A DNA stretch of 64,000 nt from Methanosphaera sp. BMS (GTDB lineage Archaea; Methanobacteriota; Methanobacteria; Methanobacteriales; Methanobacteriaceae), in assembly GCF_003268005.1 (NCBI RefSeq), contig NZ_CP014213.1:806001-870000 (forward strand), read 5' to 3'. Every line of letters starts with the position of its first letter. Position 1 is the stretch's first letter. Of this stretch, positions 1,657 to 8,143 are shown piece by piece. The notes beneath the pieces were generated by a model that was not told where the DNA came from, did no database searches, and saw only the letters and a list, made by a program, of their open reading frames with translations. The translations under genes and the position numbers were made by a program.

Positions 1657-1849
1657 AATATCTACCGATTAGATTTTTTTTACAAATAAAAATATGTTTT
1701 ACGAGTATATAAATATAAGAAGCCATTTTTAAAGCATTATTTAAGAATAGTCAAGAAATTAAATGGAATTTGATTTGCACATTTGAAGAAAAGATTATTT
1801 AACAACATCGGTATAAACCTATATGTAATAACAAATGAAGGATAAGCAA

Positions 1850-2590
1850 ATGATTGAGCAAGTAAGAATAGGTAACAATGAAGATTTGATATATGGATTA
1901 TTATACCTGCCTGATAACATGAAAGACAATAAGTATCCTCTGGTAATATTATCCCATGGATTGTCATTGAATCATACGTTCATGAAGCCATATGCAGAAA
2001 AACTGCAAAAAGAGGATATCATAGCATTCATATATGATTTTCGTGGTGGCGGCTACGGTTCAAAAAGCGGTGGCAAAATAAGTGACATGACAATTGACGG
2101 TGAAAAGGAAGACCTGATAAAGGTACTTGATTACGTAAAAAGATTAGAATGCATAGACAACAATAGAATATACCTGGCAGGCCACAGTCAGGGAGCACTG
2201 GTATCAAGTCTTGTGGCAGTTGACGTTGAAGGCCAAATCGGTGGATTATTCCTGTTTGCACCTGCATATGTCATACCCGATGATATGAATGAGGTTGTAA
2301 GACGAGAGAAAAATGTTCTTAACCTTATGCCTGAACACTTGGGAAGCAAGTACATGGAAAGTGCCAGAAAAATAAACCTATACGATGACATCAAGGACTT
2401 TAATAAAGACGTTTACATATTCCATGGAAAGAAGGATGAACGCGTACCCGTAAGATATGCAATGGAGGCCGACCGGGCCTATCCAAATTCCCGACTGATA
2501 ATATATCCCAAGGAGGAACATAGATTTAGTGATGATACAAAGAATGATGTTGTACGAATAATCAAAGAGAAAATCAGTCAAACAAATTGA
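1850..2590 (+). CDS. Alpha/beta hydrolase (serine hydrolase of the S33/dienelactone type)
   Basis: The 246-residue protein has the alpha/beta-hydrolase layout: an oxyanion-region strand with LSHGLSLNH, a FRGGG turn, and the nucleophile elbow GHSQG in LAGHSQGAL. Near the C-terminus come FHGKKDERVP, carrying the likely acid, and EEHRF, carrying the likely catalytic histidine. No signal peptide is seen, so it should be cytoplasmic and could be an esterase or peptidase. An in-frame ATG lies at 1835, but only the ATG at 1850 has an AAGGAT site at proper distance. Substrate unknown; no functional neighbours. Confidence 0.8.
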   Translation: MIEQVRIGNNEDLIYGLLYLPDNMKDNKYPLVILSHGLSLNHTFMKPYAEKLQKEDIIAFIYDFRGGGYGSKSGGKISDMTIDGEKEDLIKVLDYVKRLECIDNNRIYLAGHSQGALVSSLVAVDVEGQIGGLFLFAPAYVIPDDMNEVVRREKNVLNLMPEHLGSKYMESARKINLYDDIKDFNKDVYIFHGKKDERVPVRYAMEADRAYPNSRLIIYPKEEHRFSDDTKNDVVRIIKEKISQTN

Positions 2591-2718: not shown

Positions 2719-3522
2719 ATGGTTAATCCAAATAAAAGAATTAAAAGGCCTGACGGTTTAGGCGAATTGTTTAAATACCACATGGATGAGGATGAGAATA
2801 TCCATACCATACCGATAAAAAAGTCGATCAAGGACAACTACGTATACATTTACCGGGCCATCAATGATGAGGACTATTACATATCTGATGATGAGACATG
2901 CTTCTTCTTTAAGGAAATAGTATATGACAATGAGGTGGTGGGATTTTCAGCATATCGTTCAAGCAGTATCGACGAGCAATCGCTGGTCATGCAGCACATC
3001 TACATCCTGCCGGAGTTCAGGGGAAACAGCTTACTTGAGGAGGAACTTGATGAGGCAACGATGCTTTTTGACAGCAATATCATCATACAGTCACCCAACA
3101 GGTATGTAATCGAATCACTTATAAATCATAAACTGGCAAGGGTATTTGACGACAGGATAGTCATATCACGAATGGCATTCATGATTCCGATGCTGTCACA
3201 GGATGAGGTTGATAAGGGATGTTACCTTGAGGATTATGATATTGAAAAGACCAATGGACTAAGCAAGGTATCATTGATATATGACTTGGATTTATGTGCG
3301 GTTGTTGGATTGGCCCAGCAAACGGATGATGACTCCGATGGGGATGATGAAAGTAACTTCGACAACATGAGCCTGGCACGTAAGGTGGATGATAAGGACT
3401 TTGACTGTCTGGAGAAAAGAAAGAATGATGAATGGTTAAATAGTGGAGAGTACTTTGATAAAGTCCGAAGCGTAGTGGATAAAAACGATGAAGTCATACA
3501 AAACTGGTTAACCTTACTATAA
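2719..3522 (+). CDS. GNAT-like acetyltransferase-domain protein
   Basis: The 267-residue protein has one recognisable block, YILPEFRGNSLLEEEL at about residues 95-110. It matches the acetyl-CoA-binding motif A of GNAT proteins in reduced form. A beta strand precedes it, followed by a segment QSPNRYVIESLINHKLA. The same block order (YVIPEYRGNN, RRPNRAIMNLL) occurs in the protein at 58614-59714, so the two are paralogs. The C-terminal 90 residues are acidic and not recognisable. An AGGAG site precedes the ATG. The acceptor substrate is unknown. It ends 149 bases before the macrodomain gene on the same strand. Confidence 0.55.
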   Translation: MVNPNKRIKRPDGLGELFKYHMDEDENIHTIPIKKSIKDNYVYIYRAINDEDYYISDDETCFFFKEIVYDNEVVGFSAYRSSSIDEQSLVMQHIYILPEFRGNSLLEEELDEATMLFDSNIIIQSPNRYVIESLINHKLARVFDDRIVISRMAFMIPMLSQDEVDKGCYLEDYDIEKTNGLSKVSLIYDLDLCAVVGLAQQTDDDSDGDDESNFDNMSLARKVDDKDFDCLEKRKNDEWLNSGEYFDKVRSVVDKNDEVIQNWLTLL

Positions 3523-3671: not shown

Positions 3672-4481
3672 ATGGAAAAACTGGATTACCTGATAAAATA
3701 CCTGGCGGATGAGAATACGCGAATTAATGTGGAATCCCATCCGTCAACGACACTTGAAAAACAAAGACTATACCATGCACTTGTAAACGTAAGACCTGCA
3801 AACAAGATAAGCGACAAGTATCTTGAAAGTGAAGATGAATACCTGCAGTATCTGCTTTCAACAAAAGGCGTTACAAAAATGGATGACATACAAACGTTGG
3901 ATGAAACCTATCCAGATACGAAGATTAGAAATTCGGATAAAATGGCCCTATGGAGGGGAGACATTACTACACTGGAAATTGATGCTATAGTTAATGCCGC
4001 CAATTCACAGGGATTGGGATGTTTCATGCCACTGCATAAATGCATAGACAATCAAATTAACACATATGCGGGTATAAGATTAAGACTAGAATGTAATGAA
4101 TATATGAAAACAATCAACTATCATTTGGATACGGGTAAGGCATTTATCACCGGGGCTTATAACCTGCCATCAGATTATGTGATACATACGGTTGGCCCGA
4201 TTATCTCGACTAATGTTACCGATGATGATGAAAAACTGTTATGCGACTGCTATGTTAACTCACTGGAGTTATCTAGAAAGCATGACATAAAAAACTTGGC
4301 ATTCTGCTCTATCTCAACGGGTGAGTTTGGATATCCTAAAACGGATGCATGTAGAAGTGTCCTGAAATGTGTTGATGATTACCTTGATAAACATTATGAT
4401 GACTTTGACAGGATAGTATTTGACGTATTTGACCAGGAGGACGTGATGATATATGAAAGATACATCAGAGAATATAGGTAG
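3672..4481 (+). CDS. Zinc-dependent macrodomain protein (predicted ADP-ribosyl hydrolase)
   Basis: Residues 1-90 form an N-terminal helical region. The macrodomain follows, with DAIVNAANSQGLG as the ADP-ribose-binding loop, GKAFITGAYNLP, HTVGP and SISTGEFGYP. A CFMPLHKC loop gives Cys117, His122 and Cys124, the pattern of the zinc-binding macrodomains that accompany class M sirtuins. The neighbour is exactly such a sirtuin, whose start lies 29 bases inside this gene. By family knowledge, these macrodomains remove ADP-ribose that the sirtuin attaches to a lipoyl-carrier protein. No carrier gene is visible here. The domain call is firm; target protein unknown. Confidence 0.9.
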   Translation: MEKLDYLIKYLADENTRINVESHPSTTLEKQRLYHALVNVRPANKISDKYLESEDEYLQYLLSTKGVTKMDDIQTLDETYPDTKIRNSDKMALWRGDITTLEIDAIVNAANSQGLGCFMPLHKCIDNQINTYAGIRLRLECNEYMKTINYHLDTGKAFITGAYNLPSDYVIHTVGPIISTNVTDDDEKLLCDCYVNSLELSRKHDIKNLAFCSISTGEFGYPKTDACRSVLKCVDDYLDKHYDDFDRIVFDVFDQEDVMIYERYIREYR

Positions 4482-5361
4482 ATTGAAGGAGGTATTTGAC
4501 AATACAGATAATATCCTAATAGGTGCAGGTGCAGGTCTTTCAACTGCAAGCGGCATAGAATATAGTGGGAGGAGATTTGAGGATAACTTCAGGGACTTTA
4601 TTAAAAAGTATGACTTTACCGACATGTACACCTCAGGCTTTTATCCCTTTGAGACCGAGGAGGAAAAATGGGCATACTGGTCAAAGCACATATACCTGAA
4701 TAATGTTGGCATGTCTGCAACCCCTCTTTATGAAAAGATTCATGAATTGGTAAAGGACAAGAACTACTTTGTTATTACCACCAATGTCGATGATCAGTTT
4801 TACAAGGCATCCTTCGATAGTGCCCGTATTTTCAGGATGCAAGGAAGCTACAGGTATATTCAATGTCAGAAGGCATGTCATGATAAGCTTTATGACAACA
4901 CTCAACTTGTCAAAGAGATGATTGACAGCATTGATGATGATTTGAGGATAGCATCAGAGCTGGTTCCTAAGTGTCCCGTATGCGGTGGTCCTATGGATAC
5001 CAATCTTCGCAAGGATAACTATTTTGTAGAGGATGAATATTGGCATGCACAAAAGGATGCATATGTGAATTATCTTAATAGCGTTAAAAATGAGAATACA
5101 TTGCTATTGGAGTTTGGCGTTGGATTTAACACTCCGTCAATCATAAGATTTCCGTTTGAGGAAATGGCTTTCAATAACGATAAATGGACATTGGCCCGTA
5201 TCAACAAGGACCACCTGGAGCTGATGGTTAAGCTCAAGTATAACTATAAGTTGTTGACGGTTGAAGATTTGGATGAAATGGGATTGAAGAGCATTTTTCT
5301 TGACAGGTACATTCCATTGAATGATGATGTTGAACTTGTTATAGATGAATTGTTAAAGTAG
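4453..5361 (+). CDS. Class M sirtuin (SirTM-like), predicted protein ADP-ribosyltransferase
   Basis: The 302-residue protein has sirtuin landmarks: the NAD-binding GAGAGLSTASGI loop, TTNVDDQF with Asn111, and a zinc site with CQKAC and CPVCGG. The canonical catalytic histidine of the HG motif is replaced by glutamine in RMQGSY (Gln130). This is the signature of SirTM enzymes, which ADP-ribosylate rather than deacetylate. It overlaps the macrodomain gene by 29 bases, suggesting translational coupling; AGGAGG (4435-4440) lies 12 bases before the ATG. In bacteria such pairs sit with GcvH-like and lipoate ligase genes, absent here. Peroxidase genes follow instead. Confidence 0.88.
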   Translation: MKDTSENIGRLKEVFDNTDNILIGAGAGLSTASGIEYSGRRFEDNFRDFIKKYDFTDMYTSGFYPFETEEEKWAYWSKHIYLNNVGMSATPLYEKIHELVKDKNYFVITTNVDDQFYKASFDSARIFRMQGSYRYIQCQKACHDKLYDNTQLVKEMIDSIDDDLRIASELVPKCPVCGGPMDTNLRKDNYFVEDEYWHAQKDAYVNYLNSVKNENTLLLEFGVGFNTPSIIRFPFEEMAFNNDKWTLARINKDHLELMVKLKYNYKLLTVEDLDEMGLKSIFLDRYIPLNDDVELVIDELLK

Positions 5362-5447: not shown

Positions 5448-5987
5448 ATGACAATTTATGATTTTGAAGTTAAGGATGCAGATGGCAACACTGTATCATT
5501 AAGTGAATATAAGGATAAGGTACTGTTAATAGTAAACTCAGCAACCAAATGTGGATTTACCCCACAATATAACCAACTGACAGATATTTACAATGAATTC
5601 AAGGATGACGGATTTGTAATACTTGACTTTCCATGTAACCAATTTGGAAAGCAGGCACCCGGTACGTCAACTGAAATCAAGGAGACCTGCAGGTTAAAGT
5701 TCATGGTGGAATATCCTATCTTTGATAAGATAGACGTTAACGGTGAAAACGAAGATCCGTTATATACATATCTGAAACAGCAACAACCGTTTACTGAAAT
5801 TACAGGTAAGGGTGCTGGTAAGCTTAAGTTGGTTGTCAAGGCAACTGACTGGAATTACAAGAACAACAATGACATCAAATGGAATTTCACCAAGTTTTTG
5901 GTTGACCGTGACGGAAATGTCGTTAGACGCTTTGAACCAACTGAAGACTTGGATGAGGTTAAGGCTGCTGTCAAAGAGTTATTATAG
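5448..5987 (+). CDS. Glutathione-peroxidase-like thiol peroxidase, copy 1
   Basis: The 179-residue protein is a complete cysteine-type member of the glutathione peroxidase family. The peroxidatic Cys35 lies in ATKCGFTPQYNQL. The second motif FPCNQFGKQAPG provides the conserved Gln, and KWNFTKFLV gives the conserved Trp and Asn. A further Cys in KETCRLKF sits where thioredoxin-dependent members carry the resolving cysteine, so thioredoxin is a more likely reductant than glutathione. A GTG codon at 5439 is in frame, but GAAGTGATAATT before the ATG at 5448 sets the start. It is nearly identical at its 5' end to the copy at 6339. Confidence 0.92.
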   Translation: MTIYDFEVKDADGNTVSLSEYKDKVLLIVNSATKCGFTPQYNQLTDIYNEFKDDGFVILDFPCNQFGKQAPGTSTEIKETCRLKFMVEYPIFDKIDVNGENEDPLYTYLKQQQPFTEITGKGAGKLKLVVKATDWNYKNNNDIKWNFTKFLVDRDGNVVRRFEPTEDLDEVKAAVKELL

Positions 5988-6338: not shown

Positions 6339-6884
6339 ATGAGCATTTATGATTTTGAAGTTAAGGATGCAGATGGCAACACTGTATCATTAAGCGAATA
6401 TAAAGATAAAGTACTGTTAATAGTAAACTCAGCAACCGAATGTGGATTTACCCCACAATATAACCAACTGACCGAAATTTACAATGAATTCAAGGATGAC
6501 GGATTTGTAATACTTGACTTTCCATGCAACCAATTTGGAAAGCAGGCACCCGGTACAGCTACCGAAATCAAGGAAGCCTGCAGGATAAACTTCCTCGTGG
6601 AATATCCAATCTTCGACAAGATAGACGTAAACGGTGAAAATGAAAATCCGCTATACACATACCTAAAACGTGAGAAGACATTTGAAGGATTCGATGAAGA
6701 TCATGAACTCACCGAAATAATAAAGGATGTTGTTGCCAAGATAGATGCCGACTATGAAAACAACGGCGACATCAAGTGGAACTTCACGAAATTCCTTGTT
6801 GACAGGGATGGAGAAGTTGTTGAAAGATTTGAGCCAACAAAGGATTTGAACATTGTCAGAGAAAAAATTAAAGAGTTATTATAA
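6339..6884 (+). CDS. Glutathione-peroxidase-like thiol peroxidase, copy 2
   Basis: The 181-residue protein is a paralog of the gene at 5448. It keeps peroxidatic Cys35 (ATECGFTPQYNQL), the FPCNQFG motif, the second Cys (KEACRINF) and KWNFTKFLV. The first 110 residues are almost unchanged between the copies. The stretch between the resolving-cysteine region and the Trp motif differs: here KTFEGFDEDHELTEIIKDVV, in copy 1 a shorter Gln-, Gly- and Lys-rich segment. The stop codon overlaps the ATG of the following flavodoxin gene (TAATG), so the two are likely co-translated. Confidence 0.92.
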   Translation: MSIYDFEVKDADGNTVSLSEYKDKVLLIVNSATECGFTPQYNQLTEIYNEFKDDGFVILDFPCNQFGKQAPGTATEIKEACRINFLVEYPIFDKIDVNGENENPLYTYLKREKTFEGFDEDHELTEIIKDVVAKIDADYENNGDIKWNFTKFLVDRDGEVVERFEPTKDLNIVREKIKELL

Positions 6885-7299
6885 TGAAATATGCTATACG
6901 ATACTATACAAAGACTGGCAATACAAAAATTCTGCAGATGCAATATCCGAAGTGCTGAATGTCGAGTCAAATGATTTATCAGTACCTTTAGATGAGAATG
7001 TTGATGTCCTGTTTCTGGGTACCAGCATCTACGGTTCAAGTATTGATCCTGCCGTCATTAAATTCTTTGACAACTTGAATGTAGATGTTAAGAAAATCAT
7101 ATCATTCGGAACGTCCGGTACCATGCAGTCATCATATGGACAAATATCCAATTTATGTCATGTGCATGATATCAAACTTGATGAAAAAGAGTTTCACGCT
7201 CCGGGTGCATTTGTAGGAATGAATGCTGACAGACCAAATAAAGATGACGTCAAAGCCATTAAGGAATTTGTTAAAAAAGTAACTGATAGAGGAAATTGA
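6884..7299 (+). pseudogene. Flavodoxin-family protein, frameshifted near the N-terminus
   Basis: The ATG at 6884 overlaps the peroxidase stop and begins MKYAIRYYTKTGNT, a textbook FMN-phosphate loop of flavodoxins. That frame stops after 24 codons. The rest of the flavodoxin (SADAISEVLNVES, then LFLGTSIYGSSIDP and SFGTSG) continues in the next frame to 7299. One extra A in the A5 run at 6925-6929 restores a single reading frame of about 139 residues. Starting the downstream frame at a TTG (6853) would replace the FMN loop with unrelated residues, so I reject that start. It could be a sequencing indel, a recent mutation or slippage expression. If functional, it would carry electrons, perhaps for the peroxidases. 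Confidence 0.75.
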
Positions 7300-7303
7300 T
7301 GCT

Positions 7304-8143
7304 ATGTGTGAATTGTTTGCATTGAATGCTAGTTGTGATGTTGATATAACCGATTATTTGAAAGTCTTTTATAGCCACTGCGATAAACATCCAAACGGTT
7401 GGGGTTTATCATATCTTAAAAAGGACAATACGGTTTTTCATAAAGAGGCCGTGAAGGCAAGTGAAAGTACATTATTAAATGACATTTTATCCAATAGGAT
7501 AATCACCAATAATCTATTGGCACATATCAGACTTGCAACTATAGGTGATATGACTGTATGTAACTGTCATCCGTTCAAGTTGACCGATAACAACAATAGA
7601 CGATGGACTCTTATTCATAATGGAACAATATTCAACTATCCAGCACTGGATAAGTATGAGGATATTCAAATGGGAAATACCGACTCCGAAAGAATACTCC
7701 ATCACATGGTAGACTGTGTAAATGAGAACGAAAAATATGAAAAACTGGACGATGACGCCTTATGTGAATTGATAAATGACGTCATCTGTCGATTGTCCCG
7801 GGACAACAAGCTTAATCTGATATTATCCAATGGCCAAATGACATTCCTTCACAGCAACTGTGAAAAGTCTCTGTATTATCTTGAAAAGGATGATTACATC
7901 ATCGTATCCACATTGGCCTTAAGCAGTGAATATTGGATTGAAGTAGACCTTAACACGGTCTATGCCATTAGGGATGCACAGATAATCTACAAGGGACAGG
8001 CCCATGAGAACAAATATGTCATCAGTGAGGATGACATCGAGTTTATACTGGATAATCTGAGTGATGATGCCATGTGCAAGCTCCTGGATTCATATGGAAG
8101 TGTTGAAAATATCAAAAGACAGCTATCAAACAAGGACAAATAA
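7304..8143 (+). CDS. Class II glutamine amidotransferase (YafJ-like)
   Basis: The 279-residue protein starts MCELFALNAS, so Cys2 becomes the N-terminal nucleophile after methionine removal, as in Ntn-type glutaminases. Further family motifs are HPNGWGLSY, AHIRLAT, NCHPFKL, LIHNGTIFNY and the GNTDSERILHHM segment that binds glutamine. There is no synthetase domain, so it is a stand-alone amidotransferase of the YafJ/DUG3-like group, whose physiological substrate is usually unknown. It begins four bases after the flavodoxin stop and so belongs to the peroxidase-flavodoxin transcription unit. Confidence 0.85.
   Translation: MCELFALNASCDVDITDYLKVFYSHCDKHPNGWGLSYLKKDNTVFHKEAVKASESTLLNDILSNRIITNNLLAHIRLATIGDMTVCNCHPFKLTDNNNRRWTLIHNGTIFNYPALDKYEDIQMGNTDSERILHHMVDCVNENEKYEKLDDDALCELINDVICRLSRDNKLNLILSNGQMTFLHSNCEKSLYYLEKDDYIIVSTLALSSEYWIEVDLNTVYAIRDAQIIYKGQAHENKYVISEDDIEFILDNLSDDAMCKLLDSYGSVENIKRQLSNKDK

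Follow-up and report, generated by a model that had tools for sequence, protein, structure and literature searches.

What does a class M sirtuin (SirTM) modify when no lipoyl carrier is encoded with it? The targets of carrier-free pairs of SirTM and zinc-dependent macrodomain are a question posed by the field (PMC11490716), and we sought to address it for one such pair from Methanosphaera sp. BMS, located in a window of 64,000 nucleotides (the whole stretch of DNA that was analysed). Three SirTM arrangements have been described, namely the extended operon, the lone pair and the fusion (Rack et al. 2015, PMC4518038; Ariza et al. 2024, PMC11490716). The lipoyl partners GcvH-L and LplA2 belong only to the extended operon of Lactobacillales and Staphylococcaceae, and minimal pairs that lack them form a recognised class of their own (PMC4518038, PMC11490716). 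A minimal archaeal pair was reported in 2024 from Methanobrevibacter oralis, whose macrodomain MorMacro was crystallised (8RSI, 8RSJ and 8RSK); MorMacro did not de-modify GcvH-L but removed Glu/Asp-ADP-ribose from PARP1 E988Q, and the authors stated that the SirTM targets outside the extended operon are open (PMC11490716). An earlier note on this DNA had treated the lipoyl partners as usual in bacteria, which is correct for the extended operon but not for the minimal pairs, and an archaeal pair without them falls into an existing category, with less novelty than that note supposed. Methanosphaera nevertheless provides a clean setting for the question, since the searches revealed neither lipoyl machinery nor a second SIR2-family gene and a close relative lacks the pair. 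The pair and its diagnostic codons are located as follows.

3672..4481, + strand: zinc-dependent macrodomain (protein-ADP-ribose hydrolase), 269 aa (Pfam Macro, 4.8e-33)
4020..4043, + strand: zinc-loop codons Cys117-x4-His122-x-Cys124, Cx4HxC (translation, alignment)
4453..4481, + strand: 29-base overlap of the macrodomain and sirtuin genes (ORF coordinates)
4453..5361, + strand: class M sirtuin (SirTM), 302 aa (phmmer against PDB, AlphaFold, Foldseek)
4840..4842, + strand: Gln130 codon, where other sirtuins have the catalytic His; equivalent to Gln137 of S. pyogenes SirTM (alignment, PMC4518038)
5008..5010, + strand: Arg186 codon, corresponding to Arg192 of S. pyogenes SirTM (alignment)
5116..5136, + strand: GVGFNTP codons, residues 222-228 (alignment)

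We first consider whether the sirtuin could be an ordinary deacylase that merely resembles SirTM. No other SIR2-family gene was detected in the genome, which would fit such a role. However, the replacement of the catalytic histidine by Gln130, pointed out in the earlier note, was found at that position and is shared by 105 of the 109 rows of the homologue alignment, so it is not a chance feature. The protein also carries Asn111 (class M; Asn118 in S. pyogenes), Arg186 and GVGFNTP, which follows the class pattern GVGx[NT]TP, the class M residues being those described in PMC4518038; the zinc-site cysteines are 138, 142, 174 and 177. At E<1e-3, phmmer against the PDB matched only 5A3A (S. pyogenes SirTM, 3e-52) and 8RSN (Mfs1, a fungal fusion). 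The AlphaFold model (pLDDT 94.3) was best matched by Foldseek to 5A3A (3.7e-30, TM 0.84), with the top canonical sirtuin at 1.6e-11. Both searches favour SirTM over a canonical deacylase class, and the deacylase reading is extremely improbable; by sequence, profiles and modelled fold, the protein is a SirTM. Throughout the genus Methanosphaera all SIR2 matches were SirTM, and no second SIR2-family gene was found in the host genome.

The macrodomain was similarly well placed. It scored 302 bits against the curated NCBIfam model PRK04143 (protein-ADP-ribose hydrolase), above the cut-off of 272, and its closest solved structure was 8RSI, MorMacro (1.4e-61), to which it aligned over its full length from residue 2, including the N-terminal 3-alpha extension. 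The zinc loop, a Cx4HxC motif that defines zinc macrodomains (PMC11490716), lies exactly at residues 117, 122 and 124 as had been claimed, and the C/H/C residues were kept in 95 of 95 macrodomain rows, which argues against chance. NAAN was noted at residues 108-111, and the net charge of the protein is -15. Residues, profiles and fold thus bear out the identification of a SirTM/zinc-macrodomain pair.

The coordinates of the two open reading frames confirm the 29-base overlap, and comparable overlaps were encountered in most Methanosphaera loci; translational coupling of the two genes is likely. On sequence, the pair is well identified as a member of the minimal (carrier-free) SirTM/zinc-macrodomain class, in a second archaeal lineage. 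With the M. oralis pair it shares an archaeal host, the lack of a carrier, the same domains, the Cx4HxC loop and the N-terminal extension, and it differs in lineage, as MorMacro is nearest to the Methanobrevibacter-type genus g10 (BLAST 65-68%). With the extended operon of S. aureus and S. pyogenes (PMC4518038) it shares an adjoining macrodomain and sirtuin with the same catalytic residues, whereas GcvH-L, LplA2 and the GcvH-L-contacting arginines of that operon are missing from the host genome.

The reading that we prefer, and hold to be probable, is that the locus encodes a writer-eraser pair for mono-ADP-ribosylation, of the minimal class, with a non-lipoyl target and a place in the same lineage as the gut Clostridia pairs. 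What was observed here comprises the identity of the genes, their catalytic residues, the fold, the missing lipoyl machinery, the phylogeny and the neighbourhood. By analogy with the corresponding enzymes of S. pyogenes, S. aureus and M. oralis, SirTM would consume NAD+ and attach its ADP-ribose to an acidic residue in a target protein, a modification that the zinc macrodomain would take off again, while the gene overlap would couple the synthesis of the two proteins. Less firmly, we infer that the non-lipoyl target could act in the thiol and peroxide response of the surrounding gene island.

The competing possibility that the target is a lipoylated GcvH-like carrier, as in the S. pyogenes and S. 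aureus extended operon, draws on the identity of the enzyme classes. We searched the host genome (2.87 Mb, one contig) for the machinery that this would require. No GcvH (PF01597) was found genome-wide, and no match to LplA-B_cat, the lipoate ligase profile, reached the cut-off. The sole gene of the BPL/LplA family (PF03099) encodes a 332-aa BirA-like protein, with a biotin-carboxylase-like open reading frame at the same locus. The sole Biotin_lipoyl domain over the cut-off forms the C-terminal end of a 586-aa open frame and bears EAMKM, the biotin motif, and this protein is read as a putative PycB. The absence of a GcvH-like carrier and of a lipoate ligase, which the earlier note had described around the pair, therefore extends by profile search to the whole genome, and a complete GcvH-L/lipoate-ligase set elsewhere, which that note had named as a finding against an unusual target, was not encountered. 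Because the genome has no lipoylated carrier, the target is not one, and a lipoyl target is scarcely credible; the suggestion that the archaeal target may differ from the bacterial one is a natural inference given the missing partners. Arg175 and Arg176 of SauMacro, part of the patch that contacts GcvH-L, correspond to Ser/Thr in the Methanosphaera macrodomain (IIST), which is consistent with a target other than GcvH-L. When 115 SirTM loci were scanned with crude motifs for neighbouring GcvH or LplA genes, only chance-like matches emerged, none of them convincing.

We then assessed the descent and distribution of the pair. SirTM was found in 75 of the 152 Methanobacteriota genomes, within 4 of 20 genera. 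A phylogeny with archaeal members, as the earlier note had proposed, set the Methanosphaera lineage apart from the Methanobrevibacter branch and nearest to gut Clostridia. In the macrodomain tree, Methanosphaera and Methanobrevibacter RUG020 (L110) formed a clade (100/97) nested in a gut Clostridia group (99/91), while the remaining Methanobrevibacter-type genera formed a separate clade (100/98); a single archaeal clade was rejected (AU test; p = 0.00026). In the sirtuin tree, Methanosphaera (97/93) adjoined gut Clostridia with modest support (84/83). A single archaeal sirtuin clade was likewise rejected (p = 0.0046), and a grouping of Methanosphaera with the Methanobrevibacter-type genus g9 alone was not (p = 0.099). 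The macrodomain of g9 grouped with that of g10 and its sirtuin did not (g9 with g10 rejected, p = 0.003), a discord suggestive of an exchange of partners. Because bacterial sequences were sampled using peptides from the window's own sirtuin, close relatives are over-represented among them, and the direction of any transfer is an inferred one. Judging from these trees, the pair appears to have been gained by gut methanogens at least twice, which corrects the impression of one archaeal branch. It was also noted that one contig of a Methanobrevibacter-type bin (L125, G022:C61) is, in the region of the pair, near-identical to a contig of Methanosphaera (G130), a probable case of binning contamination.

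The separate Methanosphaera lineage is new here, as are the proximity of DUF1848, a conserved thiol-redox island with a co-varying glutathione-peroxidase paralogue, and a tandem SirTM of Asn type. The nearest relatives outside the archaea, the gut Clostridia pairs (L036-L055), have a sirtuin identity of 55-63% and the same gene order as Methanosphaera, mostly overlapping, and differ in their own neighbours, which include c6 (264 aa, unnamed), DUF1848 and flavin-reductase-like proteins. The c6 gene (~264 aa) directly precedes the pair in many gut Clostridia (L038, L039, L043-L046, L048-L050, L052, L066, L071, L074, L079); it has no Pfam or PDB relative, and the host genome holds no copy.

DUF1848 (PF08902), which has a conserved Cys cluster, was found near the pair in L048/L050/L051, L045, L062, L076, L111, L110 and L197, amounting to about seven independent loci in bacteria and one Methanobrevibacter (L110). 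Its gene overlaps SirTM by 4 nt in L076, follows it by 28 bp in L197 (a Roseburia plasmid) and lies upstream in L110. As a rough guide, with an assumed background of one gene per ~2.5 Mb, chance would place DUF1848 within 5 kb of the pair in ~0.3-0.4 of 80 loci, and at least 6 independent cases would give p ~4e-6. In Methanosphaera the gene lies away from the pair, in 14 of 20 genomes including the host (genome positions 1161741-1162523), and it was present in 10/11 SirTM-positive vs 4/9 SirTM-negative genomes (Fisher exact test; 0.05, uncorrected for kinship). These observations allow DUF1848 to be viewed as a Cys-rich third component or target, with a simple relocation of its gene to another part of the genome in Methanosphaera. 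However, DUF1848 is not nearby in most SirTM loci, occurs in some pair-less genomes and co-occurs with SirTM only weakly, so that this role is rather unlikely, and DUF1848 as a partner of the pair is a lead, not a result. A literature search found no paper mentioning DUF1848. An extended scenario, equally doubtful, would join the minimal pairs and the Cys-cluster protein, as the regulated partner, in a redox switch of three parts that has spread among gut Clostridia, Roseburia and gut methanogens; the Methanosphaera pair would have come from the Clostridia pool, been inserted in a thiol-peroxidase island and now control the response of that island, and some Methanobrevibacter would have added a second SirTM with a Gln-to-Asn change and nicotinamide salvage. 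The short list of candidate partners in Methanosphaera comprises DUF1848 and GPx1, a glutathione-peroxidase-family gene of the island around the pair.

1835..2590, + strand: alpha/beta hydrolase, conserved island neighbour (Pfam)
2719..3522, + strand: upstream neighbour, weakly GNAT-like (PF00583 at 0.0011 for the L117 homologue, short of the family cut-off)
5448..5987, + strand: glutathione-peroxidase-family gene 1 (GPx1, Cys type; Pfam GSHPx, 8.6e-43)
6339..6884, + strand: glutathione-peroxidase-family gene 2 (GPx2, Cys type; Pfam GSHPx, 1.6e-41)
6883..7299, + strand: flavodoxin-like gene with an apparent frameshift close to its 5' end (relatives have intact homologues, c13)
7304..8143, + strand: class II glutamine amidotransferase, GATase_4, weakly EgtC-like (Pfam GATase_4, 3.3e-33)

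The order of this island is largely conserved in Methanosphaera: alpha/beta hydrolase, GNAT-like gene, macrodomain, SirTM, in some loci a cation efflux gene, one or more GPx-family enzymes, flavodoxin, class II amidotransferase and in some loci a glutamate-cysteine-ligase-like gene. Every Methanosphaera locus that was read around the pair had the GNAT-like neighbour, which was also present at pair-less sites. The earlier note had placed two thiol peroxidase genes within 100 bases of the sirtuin; this is accurate for the first, 86 bp past the sirtuin, but the second begins ~980 bp past its end, and both are Cys enzymes of the glutathione-peroxidase family (PF00255) rather than Tpx. The flavodoxin open reading frame of 6853-7299 has an unlikely TTG start inside GPx2, while the homologous ATG (6883) is in another frame. 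The gene looks frameshifted near 6925-6932, which suggests partial decay of the island in the host genome or a sequencing error.

A peroxidase was found in 11/11 SirTM-positive vs 2/9 SirTM-negative Methanosphaera genomes (Fisher exact test; 0.0005, uncorrected for kinship), and G119, whose contig ends inside the macrodomain, is probably pair-positive. The GPx1-type clade (95/100) occurred only in SirTM-positive genomes (the host, G117, G120, G128, G130), and GPx2 is an island member with or without the pair. The pair-less island of G116 (L177) lacks the macrodomain, SirTM and GPx1, its remaining peroxidase being the GPx2 counterpart, and the island of G118 (L178) also has no macrodomain/SirTM pair. 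The left flank of L177 aligns up to the pair and a 391-bp gap aligns to the region upstream of GPx2, so the difference spans the macrodomain, SirTM and GPx1. In part of the genus the GPx1 paralogue and the pair are present or absent together, and the rest of the island is independent of the pair. It was also noted that in G128 SirTM (L035:7932-8906) and the macrodomain (L179:6399-8797) are on different contigs, each near its own GPx-family gene.

GPx1 could itself be the protein that is ADP-ribosylated, inactivated by the sirtuin and reactivated by the macrodomain, as it is the next gene downstream, its clade is confined to SirTM-positive genomes and it is missing along with the pair in the closest pair-less relative. 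However, at least five SirTM-positive Methanosphaera genomes (G113, G114, G115, G121, G125) have no GPx1-type gene, no peroxidase stands beside the pair in the Methanobrevibacter-type loci read, with none found in L110, and the 86-bp gap before GPx1 could accommodate a separate promoter. GPx1 as the target is accordingly quite improbable. A scan for sigma-70 promoters is uninformative for an archaeal host, and matches to TTTATATA occurred at chance frequency.

The link to redox stress that the earlier note had drawn from these neighbours is circumstantial. The pair does sit in a peroxidase/flavodoxin island, and oxidoreductase genes adjoin it in Enterococcus, Treponema and Roseburia loci, but L177 and L178 retain the island although they lack the pair, and no such neighbours were seen in Methanobrevibacter. 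Scanning ten proteins around the pair gave no OYE (PF00724) and no luciferase-like monooxygenase (PF00296), both of which are neighbours in the extended operon. The proposed writer-eraser pair may plausibly act on a redox-linked target, given the island, the pair-linked peroxidase and the oxidoreductases beside other minimal pairs. With pair-less islands and unrelated Methanobrevibacter neighbours, however, the co-location may be due to nothing more than common descent. In the same island of other Methanosphaera, the amidotransferase is followed by a glutamate-cysteine-ligase-like gene (TIGR01436, below cut-off; L116, L117, L120, L123, L125, L178 and L182), which suggests a gamma-glutamylcysteine/peroxidase cluster. 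A GshA homologue in Methanosphaera was noted earlier (PMC7278568), and the host genome's GshA-like copy is located outside the island.

A further question is whether the pair is a toxin-antitoxin or anti-phage module, with the sirtuin as an NAD+-consuming toxin and the macrodomain as its antitoxin, comparable to DarT/DarG. An overlapping pair with the eraser first, a patchy distribution and the pair-less sites L177 and L178 would fit such a module. However, the defence-system models of PADLOC gave no match, one scan of viral contigs found no relative of the macrodomain, the two genes are on separate contigs in G128, a lone macrodomain is present in G124, and deletion of Mfs1 in C. albicans was reported to be viable (PMC4518038). 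This alternative seems very unlikely, marginally more so than GPx1 as the target. A search for a phage or viral origin gave no DNA match, and the phage tblastn returned two unannotated records of ~5.5 kb each.

Finally, four Methanobrevibacter-type genomes were found to possess a second SirTM in tandem, in which Asn replaces the key Gln (L126:7104-8006, L127:6662-7522, L128:1984-2844, L135:7056-7919); beside a normal copy, this is likely a pseudo- or altered enzyme. Thr occupied the Arg186 column in 4 rows of the same sirtuin alignment. A nicotinamide/nicotinate phosphoribosyltransferase (NAMPT_N, 2.4e-43) was noted downstream of the Methanobrevibacter-type pair in L127:4944-6377 and L128:345-1778, and also in L129 and L154, and it could recycle the nicotinamide released by SirTM.
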